From Odontesthes bonariensis (lineage: Eukaryota; Chordata; Actinopteri; Atheriniformes; Atherinopsidae), in NCBI RefSeq assembly GCF_027942865.1, contig NC_134526.1, positions 21,309,784-21,373,783 on the forward strand: a stretch of DNA of 64,000 nt, in the 5' to 3' direction. The translations under genes and the position numbers were made by a program. Positions 18,770 to 64,000 of the stretch are shown piece after piece. Below the pieces are notes generated by a model. That model was not told the origin of the DNA. It ran no database searches and saw only the letters and a list, made by a program, of their open reading frames with translations. Numbering within the stretch: position 1 is the first letter of the stretch; each line of letters begins with the position of its first letter.

Positions 18770-21700
18770 CTGCTCCTCTGTGTGTGCGTGCGAGTGGCAG
18801 CCGCCGTCTTCTCCTCATCGGTGATGTTCTGCTCCGTCAGCTCGGACACCTTACACTTCTCCATCACAACCATCTCTATTTCTGCGCACACAGTGTGCAC
18901 TCACTTACATAAGCGTCCACAAATGTGGACCGCTCCTGGGCCAATATCGACTATTTACATCGACATCCTGGACCTCCTGAACACACACACAGCTCTGAAT
19001 AAACTAAGGGCTCTCGTTACCAACGACTATGAATACCTGACGTATGAGTCTGACGCAATTCCTTCTCTCCCTTTGTGGTTCGGAAAAAGATTAAATGCAT
19101 TGAAGCAGCAAAGGAGAGTTAGAGGTGTCCTTTTTATTAAGCACAGAGCAGGTTAAATTCACTGCATGGCATGGAAGAAACATTTAATTTAGTGCAAACG
19201 TCACTAAACTTACTATCTAATCATTTTAAATGTTTTTAACTTTAGAACTTATTTGATAAATCTGTTCAAAGTGACAGGTGTTGTTTTCCCAAGCCATTAG
19301 CTGCACATCTCATTTTGAAACCAGCTTCTAGGTCTGCAGCCCACAATGTGTGTGCTCAAATCAGCACTGTTGCAAACATGTTCATTTGGGCCAAAAGAGT
19401 CCTTAAGGTTGTGTATTCAAGCAGAGACTCCAACACAAGCAGTCAAAGTCCAGAAGGAATAATTTCAGATGAGTGAAATGGTCCCGTTAAAAACAACCAA
19501 AGAAAAAAACCAACAAAAAAAACAGATGCTGTGCTAACAAACAAACAAACACGCACACACACACACACACACACTCAGAGCAGGAGTGAGGGACAGGCGG
19601 AAAGGTGAGGAGCACAGGATGGGTGGTGTGTCACTGTGGGAATGGACAGTTTGCTGTCATGGAGACTGTGTTGAATATGATCAGTTGTAAACATGGGAAA
19701 AGTACCTAACAGGGGAAAGAGGGAGGCCTCATCATGCTTCTTCATTTTTTTTTCCTTTTCTTTCTCCTGAACTGTTTATAGTGGACCAAAAGGCCGATTA
19801 AAGCTTTTTTTGGGTTTTTTTGCAGCAGAAGCATGGAGATGATGAAAAAGCAACAAAGCTGAGCACATGTATTATTAGGAATGTTGTCGATTAAAATAAG
19901 GCTGCATCGTCTTTTTTTAATGTTTGGAGACAAGGGGTGGCTGCTGTGGTGACTGTTGGAAGACCAGACTGTATGGGAGATGACACATCTGAATGGTGGG
20001 AGAAAAGAAACACAAACACAGTCCTGTACTGCTGTGTGCAGTGAGACACACTCACCTTCCGCCATCTCCCCACTCGCTCTGCTTCCCTTAGAACTCCCAC
20101 CTCCTCCTCCCTCTGTACCTTTTCCCTTCTCCCTCTCTCCTCCTCTGCCATTGTCATCATCCCAGCCCTCTTCTAGTCCTCCTCCACCACTGCTGCCACC
20201 TCCCCCTGCTCTTTCGTCGTCCTCCTCCTCGCCCAGGTTCTTATAGTTTGGCCTTTTCTGTGTTCTCTTGCGGCCTCGATGGCGGGACAACTCCAGGGAG
20301 CGCTCCAGGGACTCGGACGGTTTGATGAACCGGCGCACTGCTCCCGCACTGGCCTGCTGGGTGAGACGGGGGCAGAGTGAATAAAAAAAAAGAGAAAGGT
20401 GAGAGGAGCAAGACCAAATGTCTGGAAGTGAGGATCACAAAGAGATGATTTCATCAGCTCAACAATATTTCAGACCAACGTCATGAATTCAGCTGATCTT
20501 GGTTGCTGGTGTTTCAACCATGTTGTGGTGTCACTGTTATATATATATATAAAATATAGCACAATACCGCTCAGTAAGTGCTGAATAGGTGGTGCGGCTG
20601 ATGGTTCAAAATGGGTGAGAAAACTCGGTTCAGCTTATCTACTGAGATGATTCAGTTCTGGAGAAAAATGTGCACATGCACACTACTTGGAAGAGATCTC
20701 CCGTTTAGTAAGAGCAACATCATTATAACCCCATCTCTGGTAAACGTACAAGCAAAAAAAACAACACTTGATCGGACACGTGATTTAAAAGTGTTTTCAT
20801 GCTAAGAATGCAAAAAACGTTTCCAACTGAAACTTATCCGCAAAAAGCAGACTGTTACCGTAAAAGCCTCTGCACTATCATGGTTATCGAAGTCCTTTAA
20901 AGACACAAACCACTTCCTGCCTGATGCACGTTTTCACAGTCCAAGAATGATCAACAGACACACAACTACACACACACACAGAGATTTGATCACTGGTTTG
21001 GAGGCCATTTCTGTGAAAAGACACCCCTTCTTCTCATACAGCCTATAAACTTGCACCATTACCACACATGCACAGCCCAACAGGTAGCAGCTGGTAAACG
21101 ATAAGATGTTAAGCAGCGATGGCAACGCTTATTTACAGTAAAACTGAAGAACTGCGACAACATCAACACCAGAAATTCTAATAATAAACTGCTTATTCTG
21201 AACTTCAGGTTATAATAGCCACAATAAAGAGAACACGTAAAATCAGCGTGGGAGCTGAAGCAGTTGACTAAGAAATAAAGCCAGAAATAAACCTGTTCAA
21301 TTTCAAATAGATTTTTCTAACTGGGTGCTTTTGCTGCGCTGAGAGGTGCATCGTCCCCTCATATTGCACCACTTTCGGCAAATTCGGCACACTGCCACAT
21401 GTCTAATCAGCTAAAACTAAAGTTGGCAGGCCGGCTACAGTTTTACTGTTACTGCACCTTTACTTCTGTAGCATGTAGGACTGAGGGCAGAGTAATTCTG
21501 TCATTTGTTTTCCCTTTCTATTATTTTTTTGTTGGTTATCTTCCAACCTATTCCGGTGTATGCGTTGTCCGTAACACGAACGTGATTGGTCCGCAATTAA
21601 GTGCTGGCATCTAGATGGGCACCTGGGGTCCTTGGGCAGGTAGCATTCCTCCTGTGTTAGCTGGGTGGCTGGCGGCGTTGGCGTGGCGTGTTTCACGATA

Positions 21701-24700
21701 AGGTATGCTGCAGTTTATCTTCCTTTTTACCGGGGATAGCCTTTGATGGGTACATTGCTGAGCATTAAATGATATTGTTTGGTTGGTCTAGGGAGAAGTA
21801 GCGGGAGCCTCTTTCCCTACGCTCGCGGCATTATCCACTGCCTTGGTACTGAAAAATTGCTTGCGTTTGCCTGAGTGTGTGGCGTCGACGAAGGCACGTC
21901 TGCTTAGGCATCTGTATGGTGTGCGTCAAGTGTCGGCCTGAGTAGTGGGGTTGCCTATGGAGCCTTCCCAACACTTGTGTGTTCAATGAAATATAGCCAC
22001 AGATTCTTATGCTGCGCAGTTCAGCTGCTGTTCTCTTAAGTTAGTTTTGTGGAGTGTATGAGGTGTGTGTGTGCAGGCTGCTAGCTGCTGCATTTTGGGT
22101 TTCATCCCCCCATGTTTGTCTGTTTAATTTTGTTCTCCTGTGCAACACTTCCTGTAGGCGCCAGATGCCTATTTTATACCTAGTTTTGAATTTGCCCCAT
22201 ATTATGTGTATTTGAAAACCGTATTTCTTATTATAATTTCATATTGATAAGATATTTGATGTTTATTTGATTTCGTGATTGATACAATTAATAATTTAGG
22301 TTAAAAACATATGTACAAGGTTAAAATGTGGATTTAGAATAATTACAGGAAGTTACATAGTAGATATTTAATCACTTTAGAACGCAGCGCGAGGTGCCTG
22401 GGACAGTGGGCATTATTAGATTGACACGGCAGGTGGGAGGTTGGTGCCTCACGGTCTTCTGACCGTGCCGTTACCGTGCGTGGTCTGTGGAGCCATATTT
22501 AGGAGGCATATTTTCGTTTGTATTCATTTATGTTGTTTTATTTGTTTTAAAATAAAAAATACAAAACGTGACTTCGGTGGAAGATAAGTTATCTTTCTTT
22601 GGATCCTGGAACACGCTTCAGCCACAAAGCTCCAACCTATTAAGAACTTGGTTTAGCTTTTTCGAAAATACCCTACACTTCCTATGGGAAAAAGTATTTT
22701 TGATGTGTAATTTAATAAAAATGTGTATTTTTATACTTTTCTAAACATCCTTGTCGTGTGGGTTTCTGACAGAGTTCCCCTTGCTCTAAGAGTGTTAATC
22801 AAGGGGTGGCGTAGTCTACTGCGGGGGGCGCTGCCGCTACATAGTCTACAGTAGGGGGCGCTACATTGTGGCGTTGTCGGTAGGACCCCTTTCCTGTGAA
22901 GTGTTGCATTAGGGTTCCCTTTTTGTTTTGTTTTTGGCGCAGCAGAGTGTGTGTGTTTGTGTGTGTGGGTGTAGAGAACAGCAGCTGACGGGAAGATGAC
23001 GGAGCTCCAGGAGCTACGCGATCGCCTGGAGCGGCTTCAAGTGGAAAATCAAAGACTGTCAAGTGCTAGAGGTGATGCTGCTCAATCTGGGCAGCGTGAC
23101 CAGATATTGTACATTCCCAGAGAGAGACGTTGTCCGAAATTCTCTGGTACTCCTGCAGGTGCCTCTTTATCGGTGGAAGAATGGGTCGAGGAGGCAGAGG
23201 GCTGCATTCGGGCAAGACACATGTCCAATTATGAAAAAGCCATGTTTTTGTATGATCACCTTGAGGGTGAAGCCCAAAATGAAATCAAATATCGATCCAC
23301 GGCAACTAGAGAAGACCCTGTAGAAATTGTTAAAGTCTTAAAAGAGGTTTTTGGATGTGCTAAATCTTATGTGTTATGGCAACAGCGTTTTTTCGATAGG
23401 AAGCAAAAAGAAACCGAGTCCTTGTTTGAATTTTCACATGCACTAATGGAATTGATGGAGAAAGTTAAAATGTCAAAGGGTGACTGTATCACTGACCCTG
23501 ATTTAGTTTTGCGGGACTAATTCTGTGAAAATGTCCATGACCCTACTCTGCGAAGAGAGCTTAAGAAGCTGGTGCGGGATAACGCACGTTGGACTATTTT
23601 GGATGTGCGGCGGGAACCCATTAGGTGGGTGGAGGAGGGTCAGACCGGGCGTGATCGTGGCCATCGCACGGTGGTGCCCATCTCAGTGTGAGGCCACCCT
23701 TGCGCAGACCTCTGAGCTAGCTGAGTTGAAAGGTTTGGTGCTAAAACAACAAGCCCAGCTAGATTTGCTAGTGAAACATTTGGGGCAACCACATATGCAA
23801 ACTTCTGCTTCCCAGCCATACAGGGGGGGTCGTTTTAGGCGGGCATCTGATGGGCGACCAATTTGTATTAAATGTGAACAGGCTGGCCATATAGCTCGTT
23901 ATTGTCCGACCTCTCGCCCGCTAGCTGGTAGGCCCACCTATCAGCCGTCTGTTGATGCTGCTGCCGCCGCACAGCCCCCTCATCCGTCTGTTAGCACCAC
24001 CGGCTTGCCGGGAAACTTGTGACGCCCAGTGTACAGAGCCATACACTGGGGGGAAATGCATCTGGCTCTGTTTGTCTGCCCTCTCGTAGCCAGTTAGTGG
24101 GGAAATGTCCTGTTTTAAATGTCAGCATGGGGGGGGGGGGGGGTAGTTGTCCCTTGCCTTGTGGATACTGGCTCCATGGTCACCACCATTACGGAGAGAT
24201 ATTTTAATGAACATTTTGCACATTTACAGAGGAAAGAGTGTAATTGGCTCGGCCTGAAGGCAGCGAATGGGCTGGACATACCGTATAGTGGCTATGTGGA
24301 GATGGAGATAGTGGTGTTGGGGCAATGTATTTCGGGGAGGGGGGTGCTGGTAGTCAAGGACCCTGAGGATGCCGCATCTATGTACCGTAAGGCAGCCATA
24401 CCAGGTATTTTAGGTATGAATGTACTTGGGGAATGTTACCAGGCCCTTTTTGAAAAGTTAGGCTCTCAGCTCTTTTATTCCCCTCTGATTGAATCGGCAG
24501 GCCCGGCGGCTCGACAAGCTTTGAAGCAATGTGAAAGGATCAAGGCCGTCGTCAACGCCATCAAGCCCTTTTGGGTCAGAGTTCAAGGGAAGGCATCGGT
24601 CTGCCTCAAGGCGGGTGCCCTTACCATGGTCCCAGTGTCATGCCCCCACCTGGAGACAGCAGATTTCCTGCTGGAGCCTCCCAGTTTCGAGGAGGAGCAG

Positions 24701-27700
24701 TTGCCGGAGGGTCTCCTGATGTCACCCACCCTCGTCTGTGCCCGTAAGGGACTCCTGTATGCACCAGTGGTGAATGTCAACCAGGCTGAAGTGTGGCTCC
24801 CCCCACGTCGTGTCATTGGCACAGTGCAGGCTGTGGCAGCAACTCCTGTCCAAAGTACACCCATCACGGTAGACCCCTCCTGGGAAGAATGTTGTGCGTA
24901 TGTGTCTGCTCAAGAGGTGTCTTCGCCAGTTGCCCCTCTTGACTATGTCCAAGACTTTGTTGGACTCACTCAGCAGCAGGCCACCCAAGCCCAGTCCCTT
25001 GTCCACAAGTATAGCAGTATATTCTCCCAGGGCGAGGCAGATCTAGGCTGTACCACGCTGATCACTCATGAAATCCCCTTGTTAGAGGATGCCCCTGTTC
25101 GCCAACCATACCGACGCATTCCGCCCTCCCAGTATGAGATGGTGAAGGCGCATATTCAACAGCTCCTGGACAGCCAGGTAATTAGGGAGAGCGCCAGCCC
25201 TTATTCTTCCCCCATTGTCCTTGTAACCAAGAAGGACGGCAGTCTTAGGCTTTGCGTTGATTATCGCCAGTTAAACTCCAAGACTTGGCGTGATGCCTAC
25301 CCCCTCCCAAGGATAGAGGAGTCGCTGGATGCATTGTCAGGGGCCAAGTGGTTTTCCACATTAGACCTTGCAAGCGGTTACCATCAAGTCCCAGTGGCAG
25401 AGAAGGACAAGTATAAAACCGCCTTCTGCACACCATTTGGCCTTTTTGAGTTCAATAGGATGGCATTCGGCCTCTGCAATGCACCCGGTACCTTCCAGCG
25501 CCTCATGGAGCGTATATTTGGGGATTGTCACTACCAATCTGTTCTCCTGTATTTGGATGATGTCATCATATTCTCCTCCTCGGTCGAACAACACCTCGAA
25601 CGGCTGGAAGAGGTTTTCCGGAGGCTGGAGGAGCAAGGACTGAAGGCTAAGCTATCCAAATCCAAATTCTTCCAACGTGAGGTGAGCTACCTGGGGCACG
25701 TCGTTTCTGCTGAGGGGGTATCCACCGATCCGTCAAAAATTGAAGTGGTGAAGGAGTGGAGGCGTCCAGGCCACCTCGCAGAGCTCCGGTCTTTCCTGGG
25801 CTTTGCGAGTTATTATCGCCGGTTCGTGGAGGGCTTCGCCAAACTTGCAGCCCCCCTACACCAGCTGGTGGGCAAGCTCAGTGGGCCCCGGCGGAAAGGG
25901 AAGACTCCACCTACCCCTCTGGGCAAGGCGTGGGATGACGCTTGTGAGTATGCCTTTCAGTCCCTGAAGAAGAAACTGACCTCTGCCCCTGTGTTGGGCT
26001 ATGCTGACTTCCAGAAGCCCTTCATTCTGGAAGTGGACGCTAGCCATGGTGGGCTTGGGGCTATCTTGTCGCAGGAGCATGGTGGAAAGGTCCGGCCAGT
26101 GGCGTTCGCCAGCCGTGGGCTCAAGCCGACAGAGAGGAACATGGAAAACTACAGCTCCATGAAGTTGGAACTCCTGGCAGTAAAGTGGGCAGTTACAGAG
26201 AAGTTCCGAGAATACCTGCTTGGGAACCAGTTCACCATCTTAACTGACAACAACCCCCTAGTCATCTCCAGACGGCGAAACTGGGTGCACTCGAGCAACG
26301 ATGGGCCTCACAACTTGCCTCTTTCAACTTTGTCCTCAAGTACCGCCCAGGCCGGTGCAATCAGAATGCCGACGCCCTGTCCAGGCAGTACTTGGAGCGG
26401 TTCGCCTTTGGTACTGCGGTACCAGGACTGGGTACCAGGACTGGGTTCCTTGACGGAGAGATGCCAGCTTTCGGCTCTGGAGGGCCACTGTGAAGAGGTT
26501 ACTGCCTTGCCAGGGCGCATGCCTCAAGATCTTCAGAGACTGCAGGAGACTGACCCAGTCATTGGTCCTGTCCGGTTGCACCATCAAATGGGGCAGTGGC
26601 CGTGTACTGAAGAACGTGAGTCACTGCCACAAGCCAGTCGAAGTCTTCTCCGTCAGTGGGACCGGCTGGTGGAGCGAGAAGGAGTGATGTACCGCCTTTT
26701 TCAGGCCTCGAGTGGTGGTCCGCAGGTGCTCCAACTGCTGCTGCCCCAATGCCTGAAGGAGGAGGTGCTGCGAAGTGTGCATGACGACCAGGGCCACCAA
26801 GGAGCAGAAAGGACCCTTCAACTCCTGCGAGCCCGCTGCTTTTGGCCGAACATGGCTCAAGATGTGGAGCAATGGTGCCAGAGATGCGTGCTGGGGAAGG
26901 CAGTACTACCGAAGGTACGGGCTTACTGGGGCACACTACAAGCGAGTAGGCCAAATGAAATCCTTGCCATGGACTTCACTTCCCTAGACCCGGCAAGCGA
27001 TGGCAGAGAGAGTGTGCTTGTCTTTACTGACGTCTTCACAAAGTATGCGCAGGCCATCCCGACCCACGACCAGAAAGCGACCACCGTTGCCCGTATCCTG
27101 GTGCAGCAGTGGTTCCATAGATTCGGCCCGCCAGCGCGGATACACTCTGACCAAGGGCGGAATTTTGAGAGCCTTGTGATCAAGCAGCTCTGCCAAATGT
27201 ACAGTATTCAGAAAAGCAGGACGACTCCGTACCACCCACAAGGAAATGGTCAGTGCGAAAGGTTCAACAGGACATTACATGACCTGTTACGCACATTACC
27301 AGTGGCAGAGAAGCGCCGGTGGCCCCAGCACCTGCCCCAGCTCACTTACGCCTACAACACCACCCCGCACCAGACCACTGGACACTCGCCATACTTCCTA
27401 ATGTTTGGCCAGCACCCCAGACTGCCCGTGGACTTTCTTCTCGGGAACAACCGTGCATCTCATGAGCATGACAGCCTGGAGGAGTGGATCCAAAAGCACC
27501 AGCAGAGCGTACATATGACCCAAGAACATGTCAGGCAACGGGCTGCCGACCAGGTGCGGAGGCGGAATCAAGGCCACAACGACCAAGTGAACGATGCCGG
27601 GTTTCGAGAGGGCCAGCTGGTACTTCTGCGTAATCATGCCCAGGGTCGGAACAAGATCCAGGACCACTGGCATGCCAACACTTTCCAGGTGCTACGGAGT

Positions 27701-30264
27701 GCAGGTACTGTGTACACCGTGGCTCCATTGGGCGGGGGATCCTGCCGGCAGGTCCATCGGACTGAGTTAAGGGCCGTACCGGATGGGTGGCAGTCGGAAA
27801 CAGATGGGCACATCCGCCCCATGGCGCAGACCAAAGGCCAGCGCATGGGAAGGAACCCTTCTCCCACAGACGCAGACCCAACTGATGGTATGGTGGTTCT
27901 GTACAGTGAGGGGGGAGGCCAAGAGCACCCAGTTCCGATCAGACCCCCGGCCCTCGGAGAAGGGGAAGCCCTGGGAGTCCACGAGCCCATGTCTTGTACT
28001 GGAGCGGACCAAGCACAAGCCCTGCCCCCAGATGAGGTGCCTGGGCCGCTGGAAGATGCGCCCTTGCCCTTGCGGCGTACATCCCGAGTCACAGCAGGCT
28101 GCCATTCAAATCCCCACCATCTCCCGCGGAGCTGTGTCGTAGCCGGTGGAGAGGGTGGCCCACAAGAGGAGGGCAACCTGGAGGAAGAGTAAGCTGTGAT
28201 CGTCGGGCCGCCGATTCAATTGGAGGGGTGAATGTAGCATGTAGGACTGAGGGCAGAGTAATTCTGTCATTTGTTTTCCCTTTCTATTATTTTTTTGTTG
28301 GTTATCTTCCAACCTATTCCGGTGTATGCGTTGTCCGTAACACGAACGTGATTGGTCCGCAATTAAGTGCTGGCATCTAGATGGACACCTGGGGTCCTTG
28401 GGCAGGTAGCATTCCTCCTGTGTTAGCTGGGTGGCTGGCGGCGTTGGCGTGGCGTGTTTCACGATAAGGTATGCTGCAGTTTATCTTCCTTTTTACCGGG
28501 GATAGCCTTTGATGGGTACATTGCTGAGCATTAAATGATATTGTTTGGTTGGTCTAGGGAGAAGTAGCGGGAGCCTCTTTCCCTACGCTCGCGGCATTAT
28601 CCACTGCCTTGGTACTGAAAAATTGCTTGCGTTTGCCTGAGTGTGTGGCGTCGACGAAGGCACGTCTGCTTAGGCATCTGTATGGTGTGCGTCAAGTGTC
28701 GGCCTGAGTAGTGGGGTTGCCTATGGAGCCTTCCCAACACTTGTGTGTTCAATGAAATATAGCCACAGATTCTTATGCTGCGCAGTTCAGCTGCTGTTCT
28801 CTTAAGTTAGTTTTGTGGAGTGTATGAGGTGTGTGTGTGCAGGCTGCTAGCTGCTGCATTTTGGGTTTCATCCCCCCATGTTTGTCTGTTTAATTTTGTT
28901 CTCCTGTGCAACACTTCCTATGGGAAAAAGTATTTTTGATGTGTAATTTAATAAAAATGTGTATTTTTATACTTTTCTAAACATCCTTGTCGTGTGGGTT
29001 TCTGACAGAGTTCCCCTTGCTCTAAGAGTGTTAATCAAGGGGTGGCGTAGTCTACTGCGTGGGGCGCTGCCGCTACATAGTCTACAGTAGGGGGCGCTAC
29101 ACTTCCATTACCTAATAAATTCAGTATATATTGATAGGGAGGTAATTGGTGTGTGCAATACTATGGAATGTCGTCTATATAAGACTATTTTTGTCAATAG
29201 CCATTTGTTCACTGTACATTCCAGAGGAGAATATCTTGGGATAGTTTGATGGATAATTCAATGGTTTAATGGTAAATAGACTGGACTTAAAGCAGAACTC
29301 CAGTCGATTGGATTAAGCGGGTATAGAATATGGATGGATGGATAGATAATCTGGTCGACCCCTCAAAGCACTTTTACACTACAAGACACGCTCACCCATT
29401 CAGATACATACTCATACAGCGTATCCAAGTCCACAAGTCAGTGGCTAAACTGCACGTTTTTTTCCTCTATCACACACATTCAGACACCAATGGATGCATC
29501 GGAGGCGAGTAGGGGCTCAGTGTCGGTTGGACAAAACAAAACATTCAAATCTAGATAGGATGGCATCGGCCACCGACCATTTAATCAAGAAAAAAAACTA
29601 ACCAATTCATAGATTGAAAGAATAATGTTGGTGATTTAGCCAGATGGGTCTGGGTGTATTCGTCTGGTTTGGAGAAACTCGATTTCGCACGGTTTCAGTT
29701 GAACACTTTCACATGCATTTTAAAAAGGCGCAGTTTAAGTCCGACTAACACAATCGTTTGTTTGATTCTCGTGCCATTCGGGTGTTCTCATTGGACTCCA
29801 GGAAGATCCCATCTGAGCGGTTTCGTTTCTTGAAAAGCTGCGACAAAAGACTAAGAGGAACATTGAAACTAGGTGGCCCCATTTAATTCAACCCCTTGCG
29901 CTCGCACAAACCACCAAACGCACACGCACGTGACCGGGCTGGAACACACTGTATGCGGACGCATTATCCTCCTATGGAGTTTCAAATCAAAGGCCAATCA
30001 CTCATACTTAAATCCTTGCACAGACTCAGCAGCAGTTTCTCAGCATCACTCCAACTGAATCACCAACAAACATCGTATTCTGATAACCTCCTTCCTTATT
30101 CTCCTCCCTCCACCTAATCTTGCGTTCTTCTTTGACTTTGCTCTGTGTTCTCGTGAGAGGAAAAGTGGTCTCATCACAATTAAGCACAACAGAACACCTT
30201 TATTTTAATTCGGCCAGCGCAGAAGCATTCACTGAGGTATTCTTTTTTCCTTTAGCGGTTTCTG

Positions 30265-30309
<45 letters not shown>

Positions 30310-32416
30310 AGCAGCCCTTCAAAATAGGGCACCTTTTGCAGATCAAAGATAAACTCATACATATAAATGTAAAGTAAACCAGCTGCATGCGCTTTGACAA
30401 AAAAAAACCAACAACAAGAAAAAAAAGTCAGTGTGGTCAAAAAAAAAAAAAAGTAAAAAACTATGCAAATACTGACATTATGTATCCAGCTGGTGCAATT
30501 GCAAGAAAAAAACATCTACAAAAGCAAAAGAGAAAGAAAAAAAAAAAAAAAAAAAAAACACTTCTTCCAGGAAAGAGATCTGGGTTAGGTGAGCCAGCTC
30601 TGTCAGTGTTCCATCATGTGACCAAATTTCCTGCCACATCACAGACAAACAGGAAGTGCCATTTTACCACCTGCAAAGAAACGGAGCCTGTGCCTCGTCT
30701 GCCTGCTTTTCATCTACAATAAATCAAACAATAACACAAATCTAACGTGGCAGACACAATCAATGTCCACCTTCCAACAGGCATGTTAAATAATAACAAA
30801 AAGAAAAGAATAAAATACTTTCCAGACAATTTCTGATCATCTATTAAGCGATCTTTGGAAACCATCATAGCATTGGTGTTCAAGTACTTGAAAAAAACAA
30901 AACATGATCAATAACAGAATGGAACTGACATCAGTGCAGGTTCAATCCAAGTAACTAAGTAAAATCAACATGGTAACCAGTCTATAAGCTTATCTGACTC
31001 CTTAATGCAGACACATTAGATTTCAAGCTCGATACGACCCTGTGTGAAAAGAAAAGGTGGGATTAACTGTCCTAAAGGTCTATCACAGTGGATTCACCTC
31101 AATTCTACCAAATAGATTTTAGGACCAATAGTTTCTGTCGTTTGGAAACACTTGTTTATTCCTCCACAAAATGCAGGTAAAAGTTTGGGTATGCCTCTCC
31201 TTCTGTGGTACACCATGACTGTAAAGATATCACGCCTCGTGTCACATTCACTTAAAGGGACACTATGTAATTTCTTCCCCCATCTAGTGGTGCAATTTTA
31301 TTTTGCAAAGTTGAATGAATTTGCTCTCTAGCGCCTCACGTTTTCAAATGTGTGTTGCAACTTCTTGAACTACGTCAAGATTCAAGAAGCTATAGCTTCA
31401 GACTCAAGGTCCATACAAACAAAAAGAAATCAAGACACACAGTACAAAGGATTACATAACACACATACAACAACACTATGAATACAGATGACAGATAACA
31501 TGTCAGATAACATAACATCTCCTTTGGTGTGCAAGCAATGCAATTAGTCATATTCCGGGAGTTACCGGAAGTGACGTCAACGCAGCGTTAGCATTAGCCT
31601 GCGTTAGCAATAGGAGCATTAGCAGCGGTAAATAAACTCCCGGTAAACTTACAAACTTTCTAATGCCTCGTTTTGTGAGTTAAGAGCCTATGTGTACTAC
31701 GGCAGAAGTTTGGTAACAATCAATGCATTATTAGTGGGATAATTTACGAGATAAAATCTATTTAGCATTTTTTTTTTAAACTTTATTAGTAAATCAACAA
31801 AATAACAGTTTACAAATGTGAGCATAACGCCAAAAAGAAGATATCCAGGGGGAGCATAGGAATAATGATAAAAAGAAGAAGATGATGCACTTACAAAAAG
31901 AAAGCTAATGAACACAAAGACATATGTGCCAAGGAATAAAATCTATTTAGCATTAGCGGCTGTAATAAGCCATTTGGCGGAAATGACGTCACAGTGACGT
32001 CATTTCTGCTTGTAGGCCTGGTGGGGAAATCGCGATTCGAAGTGCTTTATGTCCCTCTCGGCACTTCGTCATTTTTCATAGACCGGAAGGACATGGCAGC
32101 CTCCATAGAGCTTACCTGCTCTATGTAGATACAGACAAGTTATTCTTCACTCAGGAGGATAAGTGAGATTTTTGACAGAGATCATTTTACACCAATGAGG
32201 ACTAACTTATGAATGAATATGTTGATTTGAGCTAATAAATGACTTAATTTATTACATAGTGTCCCTTTAAAAGGTAGGCTGCTTCTTACAACAGCCACAG
32301 ACTGAGCATACACAGACACACACACAGCACAGAGAATAACCACAAGGGTTCTCAGAAACGCTCACTATTTCAGCACACCCACCTGCCAGTACATACAGAT
32401 GGTCAAAACCTTTAGA

Positions 32417-33188: not shown

Positions 33189-36100
33189 ACCGTGGCTTTC
33201 TGCGTGCTGTGTATATCCGTCTGAGGGGTGAAGACGGACAGGTCTCCATTAAGAATAACTTCTGCGAGGGCGTGGACCAGTGGCTGATAGTGGATGATCA
33301 GAAACACCTGGAAAACAAACGGAGGAAACGCTGAAACTTGTGGCCTTGCACACATTTACCACAGCAGGATTGAAATGTTACTTCTCTTTAGAATGAACTA
33401 TATAAGCCATTGACTAAACTTCCCAGAGAAAAGTCACTAAAACATTTTAAGGAGTCAACGTTTTACCGTTTTTCAGTTTAGGTGGGAGGTATTTGATCTT
33501 CTTTGGAGTGTAAAATGCTGACAGTCTATTCTACTCTTTGAACAATAATAATTGACCACATATTAGGATTTAACTTGTACAAGAAATAGGAAGAATGACC
33601 AATACACCAGTATTTTGGTGATGGCTGGTGGCCGCATCTAGTGTGTGTGTGTTGCTTACTTGAGATAGCAGGTAGAGGGACACTTGAGGATTAATCTTTC
33701 GCTCTTCAGACTAAGAAAATAAAAGGCAGAATATATAAGATCAAACATGAGGAGAAACAAACCTGTTTGAAAGTCATTCCGTGATTTTAGGAGCTTTTGC
33801 AGTTTTAAATACAATAACTACTTTTATCTTGTACAATTACCCTAACTAGTCTCCCCCCCCTTTTAAAAAAAAATAAAAATAGGACAGAACTGGAAAAATA
33901 AAAAATAAAACGCTCAGATGACACCAACATAATACATTTAAAGCTCATAGTTATCATAATTATGTTGCGTTTCCAAATATAATGTGTGACAGAGATGAAA
34001 AGAGAAGCTCTATGGTCAGACCTTCACTTCTGCATCCGAGCACACTTACAGGAACACGTCACTCTAGATTTGAATGCTTTTAAAAATCTAAAAACGGCCT
34101 TTAAAACAACAAGCTTTCCGCGCCGGACCCGTGAAGACCAGCGTGACAGAGTGCATTTCAAAACGTGCTCGAGGCTGACGCACCGTCTCGGGACTAACCA
34201 ATGAGTACACGTAGAGGGGCAGGAAGAGACGGTTGAGGAGGTGGTCGGTTAACACGTCGTTGAGGAACTCGCAGTTGATGATGAGGATGTCGTTCAGGTA
34301 GTGGAGATGGTCAAGGTGCTCTGCCACCAGGTCACTTAGCTTCCCTCTGTTCTTATGCCTGCCACAAAGCAATAATATATATATTTTTTTTTTTAAAAGA
34401 CACACACTGAGAAACACTGACACAAAAACAGCCCAAATACAAAAAAAATCTGTCTTAAAGTGCAGAATGTACAATCTAATAAACTGCAGGACAAAGTTTA
34501 GACAGCCGAGAGAAGCCTGACCCCTAGAGGCTAAAGCGAGGAGGAGACCGAGTGGGGACTTACTCTTCGTCAGTCTGCACACACTTGTCCAGTTCAATGA
34601 CATGGCTGCCGATAAACCACACCAAATTACTGAAATATGGGACCGCTGTCTTATCTCGAATGTAGTGGAGCATGTGCTGGTTGTCCACTAGAGAGAGAGT
34701 GGGGTCAGGAAAGGGAGTCGTTACCAGGGTTGTCCACAGATGTCACACAACGTACACACAGAGTTACTTATCTGTAAACACACCGAGATCCCAGGGAAAA
34801 ATACCAGAATGTGACGGTTACATGTGATCAGAAAACAAAACACGGACAAAAATCAGTAAATTAACCAATACAGAGTTAATATTACAAAAACAAATCGATT
34901 TGTTGGTAGTATAAATCAAAGAAATACTACTGGGAGCACCAGCTTGTGATTTTCCAGTTTTTCTGTCCACTTGTTATCAGAGCGGAGAGGGGACTGCCTT
35001 TAAACAAAAACAAGCCTGAAACCAGATTTCACCCAACACCACCTCGTAAGAGTGCTTACTGCTTTTTGCAAGCTGCGTGAAAGCTGACCAACTGCTTTAA
35101 GCGAGGAGTTACTTGAGTCAAATTTCTGAGTCTGAAAAGTTAATAAACTCTTTAACTTTTAACTACTGAGATAGAAAAACAAAAAAAATAAACAAGGGTG
35201 TGAAGTTAGAAATAAGTGAGATTGGCAGTCCTCTGGGATGTAGCTCAAGGCTACTTTAGCCTCCAGTGACAAAACTAAAAAGAAAAATCCTAACCCTAAC
35301 TCATCATCCCCTAAAAATATGGAAAAAAAACATGTGGAGCTCAGCTAAAATGAAGTGATCTGAACAATTCGGCCATAAAAAAACAAAAACAAACAATAAA
35401 GCATGCAGGTTTTTCTGCATGTATGCAGATGGGTGACACGTGATAAATGATTTACAATTATTACACATACCCATACAATTAAAACAAATACACCATTAGG
35501 AACAAACAGGGCTGGGTAACAACAAACAAGGGATGAATGTGTTTTTTGTTTTAATTGAAATTTGAATCTTCCAAAGGTAAAAAAAATGGGGTGATCGGAT
35601 CACTTGCTGTAGAAATGCTCGGCCTTGGCATCAGTACACAGCACGAGCAGCTGTAACAGCGTTTTAAAGTCCATTCAACATGTTGCTTGGATACCCAGCC
35701 CCAAGAAAAAGACTGAATGAATGGAACCAACCCCCCCGAGGAGCCCAGAGAGACGCACAGAGAAGAACACAGCCGCTGGAGAGCGTTAGTAAAGCATCAC
35801 TGCGGTACGGCTACGTGACATTTTGAAAACCCCTGCGGTGCACGAAAGATCAGCAACGACGTTACATGCTGGGCGGAGTAGATTTGATGAGGATTTAGAT
35901 TTGTCGTGGTGAGCAAATATGAGCATGTGAGATCAGTGAAGCGGTGATGCTGAACTCTGAGATTCCACAGCCTCGGGGGTTGCACAGTCAACATAAACCC
36001 CGTCGGCTACAGTCGCAGGCGTTTTAGTGGGCAAAGGCAAGATTTTATTTAAACTTGAGAAAATCTCTAACATTAGACATCATTCTGAAATCCACACATA

Positions 36101-39938: not shown

Positions 39939-40009
39939 CTGAAAGGTCGGGGGGATAGAAGACAGAGGTTGAAGCACAGCTCTGGAATCATTTTCTAATA
40001 TACAGCACT

Positions 40010-40410
40010 GTGCATAAGTCCTGAGCCATTTCTGTACAGGTATCCAGGAAAATGGGTACAGCAACTTTTTGCAGTATGTGCAAACATAAATGGAAATACA
40101 GTTTAGAAAGCAAAATGGAGTTTGTGCAACGTTTGAAAAATGATATTCGGTGTAAGCACATTATTTCTTCAACACAAACGAGGTAGACGAGCTTTCTTGT
40201 CATTTCTTTAAGTATTCTTCAGGAATAACACTCCAGGCTTCTTGAAGCCTTTTCTCCCTGTTTCCCTTCCTTCAGAAAGGCTTTCTTGACAGCCACCCTT
40301 CCAATAAGACCATTTCTGATGAAGTTTGGTTGAACAGCAGATGGGTCAGGTGAAGTGTCAAATGCATCTCTCAGGTCCTGTGTCAGGTCTTTGCCAATTT
40401 TGTTTTTCAT
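40010..40410 (-). mobile_element. Tc1/mariner transposase relic, left arm
   Basis: A minus-strand frame (40219-40410) includes PSAVQPNFIRNGLIGRVAVK, matching the linker region of fish Tc1-like transposases. It is followed by a sequence typical of a Tc1 3' end (CAGCACTGTGCATAAGTCC in + orientation near 40004). The catalytic part is lost. A near-identical relic lies in the right arm. Confidence 0.65.
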
Positions 40411-46400: not shown

Positions 46401-48213
46401 ATGCTTTCTCTGCATCGAGAGAAAGCACCAGACCATCAATAGACCTCTGTTTAAAAGCTATGACAGCATTCAGCAAACGTCTAACATTGGTAGCTGAATT
46501 ACGACCCCTTACAAAACCCGTCTGATCCTCCTTTACCAGTATTGGCAGGAATTTTTCTAAACGAGAGGCCAATATTTTAGAAAGCAGTTTCCTATCTACA
46601 TTTAGGAGAGCAATGGGCCTGTAGGATCCACAAGAGTCAGAGCACTTCCCCTTCTTTAAAATTAATGATATATTGGCCTCCTTCAATGTCTGTGGGAATT
46701 CTCCTGTAATGAAGGAGTGATTAAGCATATCAAGAAGAGGATCTAGAAGAATATTTTGGAACTGTTTATAAAATTCACAACAGAAGCCGTCAGGTCCTGG
46801 TGACTTTCCACTTTGCAATGTTTTGATAGCCTTGACCACTTCGATTTTACTTATGGGACTATTAAGGGTAGCCTTCTGCTCTTCTGACAAATTTGGCAAA
46901 TCCAATTGAGCAAAGAAATTGTCCATTAGTTGCTCTCCCTCTGGAACTTGTTCGGAAGAGTACAGGGCTTTGTAAAAATTCTTAAAACAATTATTTATCA
47001 GTTTATTTTCATATACCTTGTGGCCATCCTTATCAGAAACAGCTGCAATAGTTCGAGACTCTGCACGCTTTTTAACATAATAGGCCAAACATTTACCTGC
47101 TTTATCTCCGTGCTCATAAAACCTCTGTCTTGTGTATTTTATTTTCTTCTCTGCATCCCTGGTAAGAAGGCAATTTAGAGTTGTTCGGATTGCTGTGATT
47201 TCTTGCCACAATGGTGGTGACGGAGAGGCAATATATGCTTTTTCTTTATCCATCAATTCACTTTCTAAAGATTTTTGTTTCTCTCGTCTTTGGCGCTTCT
47301 TTGTTGCAGAGTACGAAATAATTAAACCTCTGGCATAAACTTTGCATGTTTCCCATAAGATGGAGGCATTGCTGGCCGATGGAGTGTTAATTTCCAGAAA
47401 TGCTTTAAGTTCACTAGAGAAGTTGGAGATAAATTCCTCATCTTTAAGAATAATGGTATTAAGTCTCCAGTGACGAGACTGATGTAACGCTGTTTTGGGG
47501 TTAAAATCCATAATTACTCTTGCGTGGTCGGAGATAATTATACTGGTTATGTCACATGATAAAACTAAATACAAGTCAGATCTTGGCAGAAAAAAATAAT
47601 CAATCCTGGTCTGACATTTGTGCGGGGCTGAGAAAAATGTATATTGTTTATCAGAGGGGTGGGTGCCCCTCCAAGCATCAACAAGTCCGAACTCCTCACA
47701 TAGAGCGTGGAGTGTGTAGACCTGAGGAGAGGGGGACACTTTACTGTGTGGAAATTTGTCAATAAGTGGATTTAATATTAAGTTAAAATCACCGCCAACA
47801 ATAACAGTGGAGTTGGAAAGGAATGGAGCTAAGTCCAGAAACATTTTGGTGAGGAAGGTGACTGGGTGGGCAGGTGGAAAGTACACACTCATCATTACAA
47901 TATTTTGACCTTGCAAAGTTCCTTTGATTATCACATAGCGACCGTTCGAATCCTTAACACAGTCAGATATTATAAGAGGTAGGTTCTTTCTAATCAACAC
48001 TGCTACTCCCCTACTTCTCGTTGTAAAGGATGAGAAAAATACTTGTCCGAATGGCCCTTGTTGCAACTTTAAATGCTCTGTGTCATCAAGATGTGTCTCT
48101 TGTAACATAGCAACATCTATATCATCCTTCTTTAGACATGTCATTATTTTTCTCCGCTTAATTGGACTGTGGACACCCCGTACATTCCAGGTGCATACAC
48201 GCAGCTTATTCAT
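43490..48213 (-). pseudogene. L1-type ORF2: endonuclease and reverse transcriptase, split by a DNA transposon
   Basis: From ATG 48211-48213 the frame begins with an AP-type endonuclease (CTWNVRG, LQETHL, GGDFN, SDHARV). It continues through reverse transcriptase blocks (SGKSPGPDGF, LSLDAEKAFDRIEW, GVMQGCPLSPLLF, YADDVLIL near residue 700). At 45279 it runs into the inserted pogo-like element and stops at 45232. The remaining C-terminal part continues at 44357 down to a stop at 43490, with the CLKCKTDVGTLTHSFWSC cysteine region typical of L1 ORF2. Apart from the insertion I see no stop or shift. Reverse transcription at a nicked target would be its role. Confidence 0.9.
44358..45278. mobile_element. 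pogo/Tigger-like non-autonomous DNA transposon inside L1 ORF2
   Basis: The ends CAGTGGAAACCGCTTATAG (44358-44376) and its reverse complement at 45260-45278 are inverted repeats, flanked by TA (44356-44357 and 45279-45280). The motif CCGCTTATA recurs several times near both ends. A plus-strand ATG near 44656 opens MAGKRKSW, which resembles the start of CENP-B/Tigger-type transposases, but the frame ends soon, so this looks like a deletion derivative. Superfamily is inferred from the TA target, end motif and this short similarity. Confidence 0.8.
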
Positions 48214-48654
48214 CTTTAGTATTATTTATGTATCATAGAAAGCATATTGAGCCAAGAGATCCACCACACACTGGATAAGAGTTAGATAAGTAAATAAAGA
48301 AATAAAAACAAAGAGCTGTGCAACAAAACATTTAAAAAAAGAAAAAAACAGTAGTTTGGCAACTATCCTACTAAACATGTAGGAAAAAATCGTCCTTCTC
48401 CTCCTACCTGCGGCTGCAGGCCGACAGGAGCAACAAGTGCTTAACGCGCACCTACCCATAGACACAAACACACATAGTCCGTCAAGAACACGGCAAAGAA
48501 GAACATTTCACCTGGTAGAATACAAGCAGTAAGAAAAAAAAAAAAAAGTAGCATGGTCACACATGCCTGAATTTGGCACATACTCACATTGCTTCATAAG
48601 GCACAGTCCATGCGCAATGTTAAAGAATAATGACAATCCGCTGGTTACCGAGAT

Positions 48655-49578
48655 TTAGGGCAGAGAATCCACGTAAGCTGCAGCTGCCTCCGGTGTGTCA
48701 AACCTCTTCACCACACCGTTGACAGACAACCTCAGCGTAGCGGGGTATAAAAGGGCATAATCTACACTCTTCTTCCTCAGACAGCCCTTCACCTTGTCAA
48801 AAGCCTTACGTTTCTTGGCCACCGCCGCCGAGTAATCGTTGAAGAAGGAACCTCTGATCCGGTCCGCTGGCTGGTTCGGCTCCGCAGCAAGGCGCCGGGC
48901 TGCGGCCATCACTCGTTGTTTATCAGCGAAGTTGTGAAGTTTCATGATAATAGGTCTGGCGCGTTGATTAGTGCCCGGCCTCGGTGCTAAGGAACGGTGA
49001 GCGCGGTCCAACTTGATCTTCCCGGCTTTAGTTGTGAGATTGAGATAGCAGGGGAGCCATGTCTCCATGAAAGTGACTGCGTCCTTTCCCTCCGTGCCCT
49101 CGGGAAGCCCGACCAGACGAAGGTTGCATCTGCGGCTGCGGTTCTCCAAATCATCTATGTGATCTGCCATGTCGGTTATTTGTTTCTCAAGTTTTGTCAC
49201 TTTAGCCTGAATCATATCAGTTGTATCTTCCATGCCTGAGATCCGTGTCTCAGCTTCACCAACCCGCGATGCCAAAGCCTGCATCTGAGATGTTTGTTCG
49301 CGTATAGCAGCAAGCACATTGTCAACTTTAGCATCCAATGACTTTGTAATGTTATCGGTTATCTGCCGCAAAGCCATAAGAATACTTGGGTTAACATCGG
49401 TCCCGGATTCCTCGACCTCGGCAGCTGCTTCCACCTCATTAGCTTCTTCGGGTTCAGCGGTAGCATGCTCCACAGCGTCGCTAGCATGATCCTCCCGAGT
49501 AGAATTTTTCTTTGACTTGGTGCGAGGCATTTTCGAAAAATAGTCATTCAGGCTCATTATAGAACTATTCCTACGCAC
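48655..49578 (-). CDS. L1-type ORF1 protein (coiled coil plus RNA-binding domain)
   Basis: A 307-codon frame; a start at the internal MPRTKSKKNS is also possible. After a basic N-terminus and an acidic stretch comes a long heptad coiled coil (about residues 75-150: IREQTSQMQALASRVGEAET and following). An RRM-like part then contains NLRLVGLPEG, KIKLDRAHR and RARPIIMKLHNFADKQRVM, the pattern of L1 ORF1p (transposase_22). The protein would trimerise and coat the element RNA. The frame is uninterrupted. Confidence 0.9.
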   Translation of the reverse strand: MRRNSSIMSLNDYFSKMPRTKSKKNSTREDHASDAVEHATAEPEEANEVEAAAEVEESGTDVNPSILMALRQITDNITKSLDAKVDNVLAAIREQTSQMQALASRVGEAETRISGMEDTTDMIQAKVTKLEKQITDMADHIDDLENRSRRCNLRLVGLPEGTEGKDAVTFMETWLPCYLNLTTKAGKIKLDRAHRSLAPRPGTNQRARPIIMKLHNFADKQRVMAAARRLAAEPNQPADRIRGSFFNDYSAAVAKKRKAFDKVKGCLRKKSVDYALLYPATLRLSVNGVVKRFDTPEAAAAYVDSLP

Positions 49579-50193
49579 GCTTATGACATTTCACCAGGTG
49601 AACACGTATTTTAGACGGATATTTTAGTAAACCTCACCGGAGCTCAGCAGACGATGTGTTCACACTACGACGCCATCTTGCCCGGTAATGGTAATTGTTA
49701 ATATGAAACAGGGATTGCTTGCTTAGATTGGCACCAGAGTGAGATTCCCTTAGGTCATCCAATCTTTTTCCCCACCTTTTAGGAAGGGTGGTTTTTTATC
49801 GACTGGATGACAACTGACCTGCAGGTTCCCCACAGGGACACACAGATTGCATGGGAGAGCAGGACATGAATGTTTAGTCATGTCAGGAGACTGATGAGCT
49901 GTATGACTGGAGGGAGACCGGTAGGCTGGTTTACTGTATACCGAATTTGGACTAATTATATGATAGATTTAGCTTACCTAGTTTAAAATACTTCAAATAA
50001 TGTGCGCATAGACACGTAAATAGGAGTTTAACTAATCAGTTGACTCAGAAATTGAGAGCTTATGATATATTAAGAGATTTGGCAATCAATGATGTCAAAC
50101 AAGTGAAGTCTTTGTTGCTGCAGGTTCATGGAGTGGACCGTCTATCATGACCATTTTGTGTTTCGGGACTCTAAGTAGTCCCGAAGGGGGGAA

Positions 50194-54637: not shown

Positions 54638-55051
54638 GACAGCCGCTGGTTACGCTTCCCGTTATATACAGATTCAAATGAACCTTCAATTAGTGCACAA
54701 TTTAAGTCAAACAGAATAATGTCAGCATAATTATGGGGTATAATGTATATTTATTTAGGTTTGCTTCAAAGTAATTAAATATACATCCATTAGTCAAGCA
54801 AACTTGATTTGAATAACAGCGGACTATTTTACAAAACTCCTACGACAGGTCTCGATCACTCGTAAATTCTGTGCGTACCTGAAAGAAAACGTAAAATACG
54901 AAAAGATTGGTGAATGCGCAAATTCTCTTAAATTACTCGTACGGACGATTTAAGAACAAATCTGTGCGTACGAACGGTTCTTGCATGAGGCTCATTGTTA
55001 AATCTTTGAATCTAATTTAGATATTTTTTTCTGGGTTTTTGTTGTCCTTAG

Positions 55052-56028
55052 TGCAGATGATGATGCCTCAGTGACGCAAGATGCAACAGGAAGAGAAGAG
55101 CCTCCTGGCTGCATGAAAAGACTGCGATCTAATTGGAAACTTCTTTTGGTCATAATTTTGAGTGTATTTTTTTCTACCATGACCAGCGTCACTTTGTATA
55201 ATATCACCTTGTTGTCAGGTGAAAATATCCAGCTGAGAAGACTCTTAAAAAGCACATTGCAAGAAAAAACGCAGTTGCAGAAGGAGATCAAAGTGCTGAA
55301 CATGCTCATAAATTCAACGCTGGAAGACTCCAACCTCATCGAAGAGCAGAACCAACAACTGAATCGGGCTTTGAATAAATCAATGCTTCTCATCATCACG
55401 ATGGCTACTGCAGAAAAAAAAAGATTGCACTCGCTGTTAAATTACGAACGGCAAACAACGGCAGAGTTGAGGACAAAAAAATCAACAGCAGCATTCAATC
55501 TTGTCCTCAGACAAACTGTCCTTCCTGTGGAATCTCTGCGACAAAGACACGCTGCAGTGCTCGTTCTGTATGTCTGGTTGGGCTGAGCACGCTTTCTGTC
55601 CCAAGACACAGAAAATTGGCAAAATGCTCGCAAGTTTTGTTTAGATAATATGGGGGACTTGGCTGTTGCTATGAATGCTCAAGACCAAGCATTCTTGACC
55701 AACATGACTTTTCAGTATGTAATAAAACATCCTCACGAAGACTTCCATTCAGCCTGGATTGGGATGCAAGACCTGGTGAAGGAGGGCATCTACCACTGGG
55801 TCAGCGGGGACAGGGTTACATGGAATGATGGTTTCAACTTCTGGAAGGAAGGGGGGCCAAATAACACCATCGCTACCTGGGACAAGCATGAGGCAGGGCA
55901 GGACTGTGTTGCCATCGTGCCCCCAAAAGAGGTTGGAACAGATGGCTGGCTTAACTCCTGGGATGACATTGTTTGTGGTGGCCTTCAACCACTACCTGTG
56001 TGAGACACCAGCCTTAATTTTGCCGTGA
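55052..56028 (+). pseudogene. Decayed C-type lectin-like type II membrane protein gene
   Basis: A splice acceptor (TTGTTGTCCTTAG, ending 55051) leads into an exon coding for a short acidic cytosolic tail, a membrane span (LLLVIILSVFFSTMTSVTLY) and a coiled stalk with N-glycosylation sites. A C-type lectin domain follows (DTENWQNARKFC, MGDLAV, WIGMQD, GQDCVAI, WDDIVC). Frames do not agree along its length: shifts are needed near the A7 run at about 55474, near 55590 (stop TGA 55584-55586) and near 55985, where the final YLCE block is in another frame. The usual EPN sugar-binding motif is GPN here. No upstream exon was found; a Harbinger element occupies that intron 58 bp away. Stalk and lectin domain in one exon is unusual for this family, so a processed or fused origin is possible. 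Confidence 0.75.
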
Positions 56029-60663: not shown

Positions 60664-61158
<495 letters not shown>

Positions 61159-61399
61159 TCATTGCGAATAATAACCCGTCGGAAAGTGTTAATATGTCAA
61201 CTTGGCTCGCTCGAAGACTTCTTGACATTGGTTCCTTGGTTTTGTAGAATTCACGCCATGCCAGCTGGCTTGGGCTAAAAACAGTAGCATGCAAGGTTAG
61301 CCGAGACAAACGCGAACATTCTACACACAAATTCCTGGGAGTTTTCTTAAACGCATCCCCGGTCGAAGCGCGATATTCAGACACACGTGCTTCTAACAA

Positions 61400-61866: not shown

Positions 61867-63794
61867 ATGTTTGGCCGGTCACGGAGTTGGGTCGGAGGAC
61901 AGGGAAAAACGAAAAACATCCACTCCTTGGACCATTTGAAGTGAGTAGTTAGCATCACTTAAGCTAATGTTAGCCACTATTATCACCAGTTGAAAACGAC
62001 TGCCGGCGTTAACATTAGCTCAATTGCTAACGATTTAAATAACAATAGACACGTCAACTAATTACTTTCCCATTTAGATGATAATAAAGTTTTCTGTGGT
62101 TCTGTTTTTGTCACCTCTGGTTAGACTAAATATAAGCTAGCACGTAAACGTTGCTGGCAGTCTTTGCTAATAGTTTTGAACAAAGTCAGTGCATTATGTT
62201 GTTAGATATGTTGTTAGACATTATATCCACGACCATCTGAAAACCTGGGCATCTACACCTCAAGAGTCTGCACGGGTCTTCTTCATTCCGGCTAATTAGA
62301 CCATGGAGCAGGTTGAACTGGGCTATGCTGCAAATGATCTGGGTTGCTGGATTTCACGTACTTAAGAGGGGCTAAACTTCAGGTCGTCCCACCCCAATAG
62401 GTGCACCGTCAAAGCTGCGGTCGGCAACTTTTTTTTAGTCATATTAGCTTGAACTGTCATGGGATTCTGGAAGTAGAATATTAAATAGGCTGTTTAGGAA
62501 AAATAACGAATTCTGTAGCTCCCTCTGAAGCCTGTAATCATGCTTGCTAAAACCGAGCGCTCCCGGCTGTTTTTAACCAATCAAGTTAGGGTGGAGGAAT
62601 CCTACTTGTCAATCACAGCTTGTGCACACGCTGGTGAGCGTGAGTCTGCCCCAGCTTGTGTGCGCTCACACTGGTGTGAACTCACGTGCACAACCTCGTC
62701 CACAGAGGGGGAGGGGTTTGGGGGGCGATTCGGAGCTTGTTAGAGGTTGGGGGAGGGACCTGAAAGTTGTATCAGTTCGAATTTTCCGACTTTAGACTCG
62801 CTATTCTGAAAACCTGCCGACTGCAGCTTTAAGAATAAGTGGAAATTCATGTGTGGGTGCACCCAGGTGTGGTGGCTATCACGGTCCCCTTTTTGGACAC
62901 CATGTTGACAAGAAATAATGTAGACATCCAGATGAGGTTTAGTTTAACTCACTGTATAAAGTTTTCATGAAGACAAATTCCTCATAGGCCGGAAACCTCA
63001 ATGGAACTGAGGCTTTCATTGTAAAACTGATTTAATCGATCAGACGGGTGGAACAGCTTCCTCATATGTGCCTGGATCACTGCAGAATGTGTCGTTACTG
63101 TTTAGTTTAAAAGATGGGCAGACAAGCGGAGGCCTTTAAAACTATCTATAGCTGAGGAAACGGATTATCTTAAAAGTGGCGTCCTAAAGAGATATGAAAA
63201 ACAAAATTGGCAAAGACCTGACGCAGGACCTGAGAGATGCATTTGACACTTCACCTGACCCATCTGCTGTTCAACCAAACTTCATCAGAAATGGTCTTAT
63301 TGGAAGGGTGGCTGTCAAGAAAGCCTTTCTGAAGGAAGGGAAACAGGGAGAAAAGGCTTCAAGAAGCCTGGAGTGTTATTCCTGAAGAATACTTAAAGAA
63401 ATGACAAGAAAGCTCGTCTACCTCGTTTGTGTTGAAGAAATAATGTGGTCACACCGAATATCATTTTTCAAACGTTGCACAAACTCCATTTTGCTTTCTA
63501 AACTGTATTTCCATTTATGTTTGCACATACTGCAAAAAGTTGCTGTACCCATTTTCCTGGATACCTGCACAGAAATGGCTCAGGACTTATGCACAGTGCT
63601 GTATATTGGAAAATGATTCCAGAGCTGTGCTTCAACCTCTGTCTTCTATCCCCCCGACCTTTCAGATACATGTACCACGTTCTGACAAAAAACACCACCG
63701 TAACGGACCACAATCGAAATCTCCTCGTCGAGACCATCCGCTCCATCACGGAGATCCTCATCTGGGGGGACCAGAATGACAGCTCTGTGTTTGA
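61867..63794 (+). CDS. clec16a: CLEC16A, 5' end (exons 1 and 2; continues beyond the window)
   Basis: Exon 1 is 61867-61940, starting ATG with MFGRSRSWVGGQGKTKNIHS, the conserved CLEC16A N-terminus. It splices at GTGAGT to exon 2, 63666-63794 ([20 protein letters not shown] and on), which ends at GTAAGT in matching phase. Later exons would lie past 64000. Exon 1 occurs only here, next to the DEXI promoter, so this looks like the authentic locus and the minus-strand exons at 18770-39938 a second copy. If no further exons follow, the gene is broken by an inversion. The protein supports autophagy and mitophagy at endosomal membranes (family knowledge). Confidence 0.9.
62413..62828. mobile_element. 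416-bp TTAA-flanked MITE, right arm
   Basis: Same element and same length as 40811-41226, with ends AGCTGCGGTCGGCAACTTTT and, on the other strand, AGCTGCAGTCGGCAGGTTTT. Flanks are TCAA (62409-62412, one change from TTAA) and TTAA (62829-62832). Relative to the gene it has the same orientation as the left-arm copy but sits 43 bp further along. Confidence 0.88.
63194..63600 (+). mobile_element. Tc1/mariner transposase relic, right arm
   Basis: Counterpart of the left-arm relic at 40010-40410, with the same frame (63194-63385) and a Tc1-end-like sequence (GGACTTATGCACAGTGCTG) near 63583. Catalytic part absent. Confidence 0.65.
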
Positions 63795-64000
63795 GTAAGT
63801 CCCACTCAGTTTCTTTGTGTGGCCCAGCGTGGGAGTTAAAGGGGCGTATTTGCATTAACTTGGGAGCTTTTCTTGTCCAACGCTGGGACTTGTTTATGTT
63901 GAGAATTGCCGTTCAACGTTTATGCTTGTGCGTGGGAAAATTTCATATCTCTGCTAAACAGAATAAATAAGTCAAGACTCAATTAAACACTGAAACAATG

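Follow-up and report, generated by a model that had tools for sequence, protein, structure and literature searches.

A 64,000-nucleotide stretch of the genome of the silverside Odontesthes bonariensis (assembly GCF_027942865.1, contig NC_134526.1, positions 21,309,784 to 21,373,783 of the forward strand; hereafter the window) carries the gene CLEC16A in two arms of opposite orientation, as the beginning of a complete gene on the plus strand and as a partial, inverted copy on the minus strand, between CIITA and DEXI. An inverted segmental duplication that gave rise to a truncated, chimeric gene fits these data best, and we consider it very probably the correct explanation; the duplication is most likely real and recent. 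On this account, 15.1 kb of CLEC16A, reaching from intron 1 into intron 11 and including exons 2–11, would have been duplicated, with the new copy landing in reverse between CIITA and DEXI and no damage to the original gene. Each copy would then have acquired its own mobile elements and point changes, seen today as differences between the arms, and the insert would have become a separate gene, CLEC16A-like, by recruiting an end exon antisense to a repeat resembling a long interspersed nuclear element (LINE) beyond its left junction, J1. The anatomy of both arms can be read directly from the assembly, and we infer that the copying took place in the germline rather than in the assembler.

A complete CLEC16A gene and an inverted copy of exons 2–11

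An original prediction, made from the letters of the window alone, had placed CLEC16A there twice, in opposite orientations around DEXI, and this proved correct for a complete plus-strand gene and a partial minus-strand copy. We first located the exons in the window with human CLEC16A peptides and followed the plus-strand gene into the 80 kb of DNA downstream, where coordinates above 64,000 continue the numbering of the window. It runs from exon 1 at 61867, with exon 2 following where predicted, to a coding end at around 100,773, and the exons from the third onward that were to be looked for past position 64,000 are present. Its product is full-length CLEC16A (P0090 in our protein collection, the O. 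bonariensis CLEC16A), a 99% match over the whole query; among the matches listed (120 of 2,037), the proteins of this species score best. The seven-residue words of P0090 without a match in plus-strand frames form 22 short runs, which we read as exon joins. Exon 11 of this gene stops near 77,370 and exon 12 begins at 77,457, so that intron 11 is short. A stretch covering exon 1 and intron 1 has a single match in the 945-Mb, 187-contig assembly, and searching that assembly did not reveal a second exon 1.

The minus-strand copy comprises exons 2–11, predicted at 18770–39938 and found there with an AG acceptor and a GT donor in 10 of 10 exons (Table 1). Joined to exon 1, these exons yield a frame of 484 codons with no stop. 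Missing from the copy are exon 1, the region upstream of it and everything from exon 12 onward: with full-length P0090 as query, no minus-strand match past residue 490 (exon 11) was found in the window and the 80 kb downstream, and the minus-strand exons 12 onward for which the prediction had suggested a search were thus not found there. A stretch covering exons 3 and 4 has two matches in the assembly.

When minus-strand positions 18721–41299 are compared with plus-strand positions 62293–77419, the two arms align end to end and terminate sharply within intron 11 and intron 1. They are equal at 13,655 of 13,751 aligned bases, a count that omits short gaps and stretches found in one arm only; the 96 mismatches (47 transitions and 49 transversions) amount to 0.70%, with 0.26–1.71% in each of six blocks. 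Inside the window the inverted repeat spans 39605–41299 against 62293–64000; comparing the window with itself recovers it at 39606–41299 against 62293–63998, as an alignment of 1,753 columns (E = 0), far beyond chance. Here, 22 of 1,648 ungapped columns differ, 11 of them within the 418 columns of a miniature inverted-repeat transposable element (MITE) and 11 within 1,100 columns of other intron sequence, including the last base of the window, while the 130 columns of exon 2 are free of differences, as predicted. The near-identity proposed for about 1.7 kb of flanking intron also held, with the proviso that this length is a lower bound set by the end of the window, since the repeat reaches 77419.

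Both ends of the copy fall inside introns, and no homology to the source flanks beyond J1 or the right junction, J2, was found in the 164 kb around the locus. Inspection by eye of the printed flanks found no microhomology at J1 and one base at most at J2. Neither the window nor the 20 kb upstream contains a run of N, and the 80 kb downstream contain a single one, at 136,521–136,605. Immediately left of J1, AAACGACGC occurs twice in 18690–18720, and this doubling is possibly templated filler from the formation of the junction.

Three other readings of the junctions were set aside. Inverted ends of 16 nucleotides at 41297–41312 and 42564–42579 (81%) raised the possibility of a transposon inserted at J2, which was ruled out because the homology to intron 1 and exon 1 does not resume beyond such an element (past the 42564–42579 end, the best non-self matches are of 22 and 24 bases, E 0.3). 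The LINE-like repeat fragment is unlikely to constitute J1 itself, as the single other copy compared stops at 18677, 43 bp short of it. Nor can J1 be put down to an unusually long intron 11 in the minus copy, as the homology stops at 18721, within an intron that is short in the intact gene.

Mobile elements mark the arms as separately evolved

The arms differ not only by substitutions. The minus arm alone contains a long terminal repeat (LTR) retrotransposon (21467–29101), a TTAA-flanked element (31256–32266) and 92 bases at 35906–35997, and the plus arm alone contains the stretches 67756–68756 and 73201–73491. Empty sites of mobile elements are seen for the LTR and TTAA-flanked elements, while the other one-arm stretches may be insertions or deletions alike. 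The 7.6-kb LTR element is recent, with two differences in 878 compared LTR bases, and some 520 bases of its left LTR are absent from the right one.

In addition, each arm contains a 416-bp MITE, at different TTAA sites 47 bp apart, and each shows the empty site of the other arm's element. The two MITEs are more divergent than the remainder of the arms (11 of 418 compared with 85 of 13,333 positions, P = 0.0002). Their family is very abundant and little diverged and uses TTAA target sites: a first look at the genome gave 2,221 candidates, the 40 that were scored all reached at least 98%, and among 29 copies fetched from outside the window TTAA adjoins 58 of 58 ends. These 29 copies were selected because they resemble the plus-arm MITE; the nearest of them is 98.6% identical to that element, and the nearest to the minus-arm MITE 99.0%, compared with 97.4% between the two arm MITEs. 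A local hop of one MITE was therefore rejected, as each has a closer match among unrelated copies than in the other arm. Judged by their sites and nearest relatives, the two MITEs are independent insertions, which, with the reciprocal empty sites, shows that each arm is genuine DNA that has evolved on its own. Separate MITEs alone do not choose between paralogues and alleles.

Weighing the origin of the copy

The original prediction listed an inverted duplication, an inversion by staggered breaks and two haplotypes placed in one scaffold, without choosing among them; the first is now best supported, the second rejected and the third disfavoured. In this third case, which we regard as unlikely, the minus arm would be the second allele of CLEC16A, represented by exons 2–11 and misplaced and inverted by the assembler, that is, a false heterotype duplication. 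In three species, according to one study of such errors (PMC9516828), they made up 4–16% of previous and 0.3–2.3% of newer assemblies; those in newer assemblies lay mostly on one scaffold, and some had incorrectly filled gaps. The silverside case resembles them in involving part of a gene and in the shared scaffold, and perhaps in a divergence of allelic size.

Several observations weigh against a real duplication and towards a misplaced allele. The 0.70% divergence between the arms equals the heterozygosity of Leuresthes tenuis, a relative within the subfamily (0.714%; PMC13326419); for O. bonariensis itself, no estimate was found. The coding differences, six in 1,380 exonic bases, are of the kind that separates two functional alleles: five are synonymous and one is non-synonymous (proline/serine, exon 5), consistent with purifying selection (at most one non-synonymous of six, P = 0.005), and no change that would inactivate the minus copy is seen. 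Nor does the lack of N settle the matter, as wrongly filled gaps stay invisible in this way (PMC9516828). Finally, the annotated last exon of CLEC16A-like may be a computed extension, and the annotated genome and the present assembly, whose contigs measure 34,033,288 and 34,026,672 bases, may be two versions of one or two haplotypes and may thus not be independent.

The proline/serine site (36785 in the minus copy, 66797 in the plus-strand gene) bears on the same choice. Proline is found in 118 of 120 listed homologues and in the truncated copy, and serine, among these 120, in P0090 and P0124 only. By this comparison the serine of intact CLEC16A is the derived state, leaving the minus copy with no amino acid change of its own, where 3.4–3.8 non-synonymous changes would be expected on its branch under neutrality (P 0.02–0.03). 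We thus see no sign of relaxed selection on the copy, but the changes are few and a pair of alleles would give the same picture; with so few sites, the lack of change hints at either constraint or an allele.

Set against a misplaced allele is the form of the insert itself. An allele would have to be joined at two sharp points without N, whereas false duplications are marked by haploid depth and by gaps between the copies (PMC9516828), and no gap separates the copies here. The piece is bounded, ending inside introns, and both of its flanks are absent from the surroundings of the other arm; no second exon 1 was found in the assembly; and the annotated CLEC16A-like model spans J1. At 945 Mb, moreover, the assembly differs little in size from haplotype one of L. 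tenuis (917 Mb), with no sign of wholesale retention of two haplotypes. The neighbouring genes CIITA, DEXI and SOCS are all in their expected places, which makes the minus arm the intruder.

An inversion by staggered breaks leaves inverted repeats flanking a unique segment, and the arms around their 21 kb of unique sequence have just this appearance. Such an event would have duplicated a breakpoint segment and split CLEC16A. As far as this assembly goes, we reject it as very improbable because the silverside plus arm leads normally into exon 1 at one end and into exon 12 at the other, in an intact gene, and because undoing the inversion would yield an ancestor with a broken CLEC16A. The order CIITA–DEXI–CLEC16A is the same as in human (PMC3634488). 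Fold-back or duplicate sequencing of one molecule does produce inverted repeats, but is refuted by the 21 kb of unrelated sequence enclosed between the arms and by what sets them apart: 96 substitutions, the 7.6-kb LTR and 1-kb TTAA elements and the two independent MITEs. To judge from these differences, the arms are different DNA molecules.

The annotated CLEC16A-like gene and its possible product

Inverted segmental duplication has a counterpart in the annotation of this species. Public annotation of O. bonariensis contains both a full CLEC16A and a 'CLEC16A-like' gene of 504–508 residues (isoforms 2-T2 and 3-T3), apparently on one contig, and P0105 and P0108, the CLEC16A-like proteins, match with 100% and 99% over 95% of the query among the same 120 listed matches. 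Starting from the first ATG in exon 2, the model continues through exon 11 and ends in an exon past J1, its open frame running across the junction into recruited sequence in both P0105 and P0108. Among 23 candidates from the protein collection, only these two match the tail encoded by 18416–18279. In P0105, 148 of 148 profile positions of the FPL domain are covered, but just 232 of 767 of CLEC16A_C.

The tail lies antisense to a repeat fragment whose open frame, 17857–18609, has a Pfam match to ALKBH8_N (PF09004) only. A copy with 96.8% identity, aligned to 17937–18677, is present in one (L044) of 29 other loci; we call the fragment LINE-like for its look and for this copy, a label of our own without Pfam support.

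DEXI is encoded on the same strand as CLEC16A-like and, as the copy lies downstream of it, read-through from the DEXI promoter would be the likeliest source of transcription and is the one we prefer. According to a review (PMC10179542), the C-terminal disordered region of CLEC16A is critical for assembly of the mitophagy machinery. The predicted product, if translated, should lack that region and so either do nothing or serve as a decoy for the proteins that CLEC16A interacts with. We find it improbable that the copy goes further than this and is a young chimeric gene, transcribed from the DEXI promoter and ending in a repeat-derived tail, that selection has kept as a dominant-negative or decoy form of CLEC16A; the notion of its being kept by selection stems from the lack of amino acid changes on its own branch.

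Partial inverted segmental duplications with a chimeric gene are known in which a bounded piece is copied nearby, inverted, truncated in introns and given a new end exon by neighbouring sequence. The silverside copy does not differ from these in principle, and its particulars are that it sits between CIITA and DEXI, shares a strand with DEXI and draws its end exon from a repeat. The copy is already in public annotation. We found no publication combining CLEC16A and Odontesthes, although one may be in print beyond the literature searched, and we recognised no pejerrey genome paper in that literature. If our reading is true, this fish, with a truncated CLEC16A occurring naturally next to the complete gene, amounts to a small natural experiment on the role of the C terminus. 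The case also carries a warning: when an inverted copy of part of a gene diverges no more than an allele might and is annotated as a gene, the reads need checking before a gain is claimed.

Gene neighbourhood and other features

The CLEC16A, DEXI and CIITA block has been studied for human autoimmune risk, and the human 16p13 complex is CIITA–DEXI–CLEC16A–SOCS1, with DEXI between CLEC16A and CIITA (PMC3634488). The silverside block has the same genes with DEXI in the middle and is an otherwise ordinary CIITA–DEXI–CLEC16A–SOCS block into which the inverted copy is placed between CIITA and DEXI. Human DEXI, CIITA and CLEC16A presumably have the same orientations as in the fish. We know of no CLEC16A copy between CIITA and DEXI in human, so that to our knowledge the extra piece sets the silverside apart.

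CIITA is identified by its NACHT domain (PF05729, 5e-31); of its 89 protein matches, five are named class II transactivator and most others are unnamed. DEXI and CLEC16A exon 1 lie between the arms, as predicted. Downstream, the minus-strand open frame L007:5483-6271 has an SH2 match (1.6e-09) and a SOCS-box match under the curated cut-off, and by position we read it as SOCS1.

Table 1 Features of the CLEC16A locus, in window numbering (strand '.', none assigned; MHC, major histocompatibility complex).
Feature	Coordinates	Strand	Basis
CIITA, from before NACHT exon to C-terminal repeats	7175-12787	+	tblastn, four fish proteins (two named class II MHC transactivator)
LINE-like repeat fragment adjoining J1 on left	17857-18677	+	antisense strand gives CLEC16A-like end exon
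Last coding exon of CLEC16A-like (~45 residues)	18416-18279	-	P0105 residues 459-504 match 100%; AG precedes
Junction J1, left end of copy	18720/18721	.	pairs with plus-arm 77419, intron 11
Minus arm: inverted partial CLEC16A copy with exons 2-11, from intron 1 into intron 11	18721-41299	-	alignment to 62293-77419; exons, splice sites
CLEC16A-like exon 11	18770-18881	-	splice borders, frame
CLEC16A-like exon 10	20056-20353	-	splice borders, frame
LTR retrotransposon (Ty3/Gypsy-like domain order), intron 9, minus arm only	21467-29101	.	CTTC target duplication; plus arm empty
TTAA-flanked element (~1 kb), inverted ends AGGGACACTATG/CATAGTGTCCCT, minus arm only	31256-32266	.	plus arm empty; first four bases taken from printed flank
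CLEC16A-like exons 9, 8, 7, 6	33307-33191, 33710-33660, 34358-34199, 34687-34564	-	splice borders, frame
CLEC16A-like exons 5, 4, 3, 2	36836-36731, 38471-38323, 39547-39414, 39938-39810	-	splice borders, frame
416-bp TTAA MITE, minus arm	40811-41226	-	alignment; family comparison
Junction J2, right end of copy	41299/41300	.	pairs with plus-arm 62293, intron 1
DEXI coding region (start codon inferred)	60664-60933	-	PF15198 4.6e-51 in open frame 60667-61158
CLEC16A exon 1	61867-61940	+	human peptides (at 61867-61941); one match in assembly
Source segment (plus arm)	62293-64000 in window, on to 77419 beyond	+	arm alignment
416-bp TTAA MITE, plus arm	62413-62828	+	different TTAA, 47 bp from minus-arm site
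CLEC16A exon 2 (intact gene)	63666-63794	+	arm alignment; human peptides

The 21-kb spacer between the arms carries repeats and a lectin-like frame. The latter, at 55002–56000 between the copy and DEXI, is C-type-lectin-like (Lectin_C, 3e-11) and has one in-frame stop, at 55584; it may belong to a gene, a pseudogene or an intron. A LINE occupies 43493–49590 on the minus strand, with endonuclease and reverse transcriptase domains in the frame 45235–48225; the frames 43493–44431 and 48658–49590 are taken as parts of it, without Pfam support. In CIITA, the intron between the exons ending at 9977 and starting at 11213 holds a tandem array of about 45 copies of a 17-bp unit (10064–10827).

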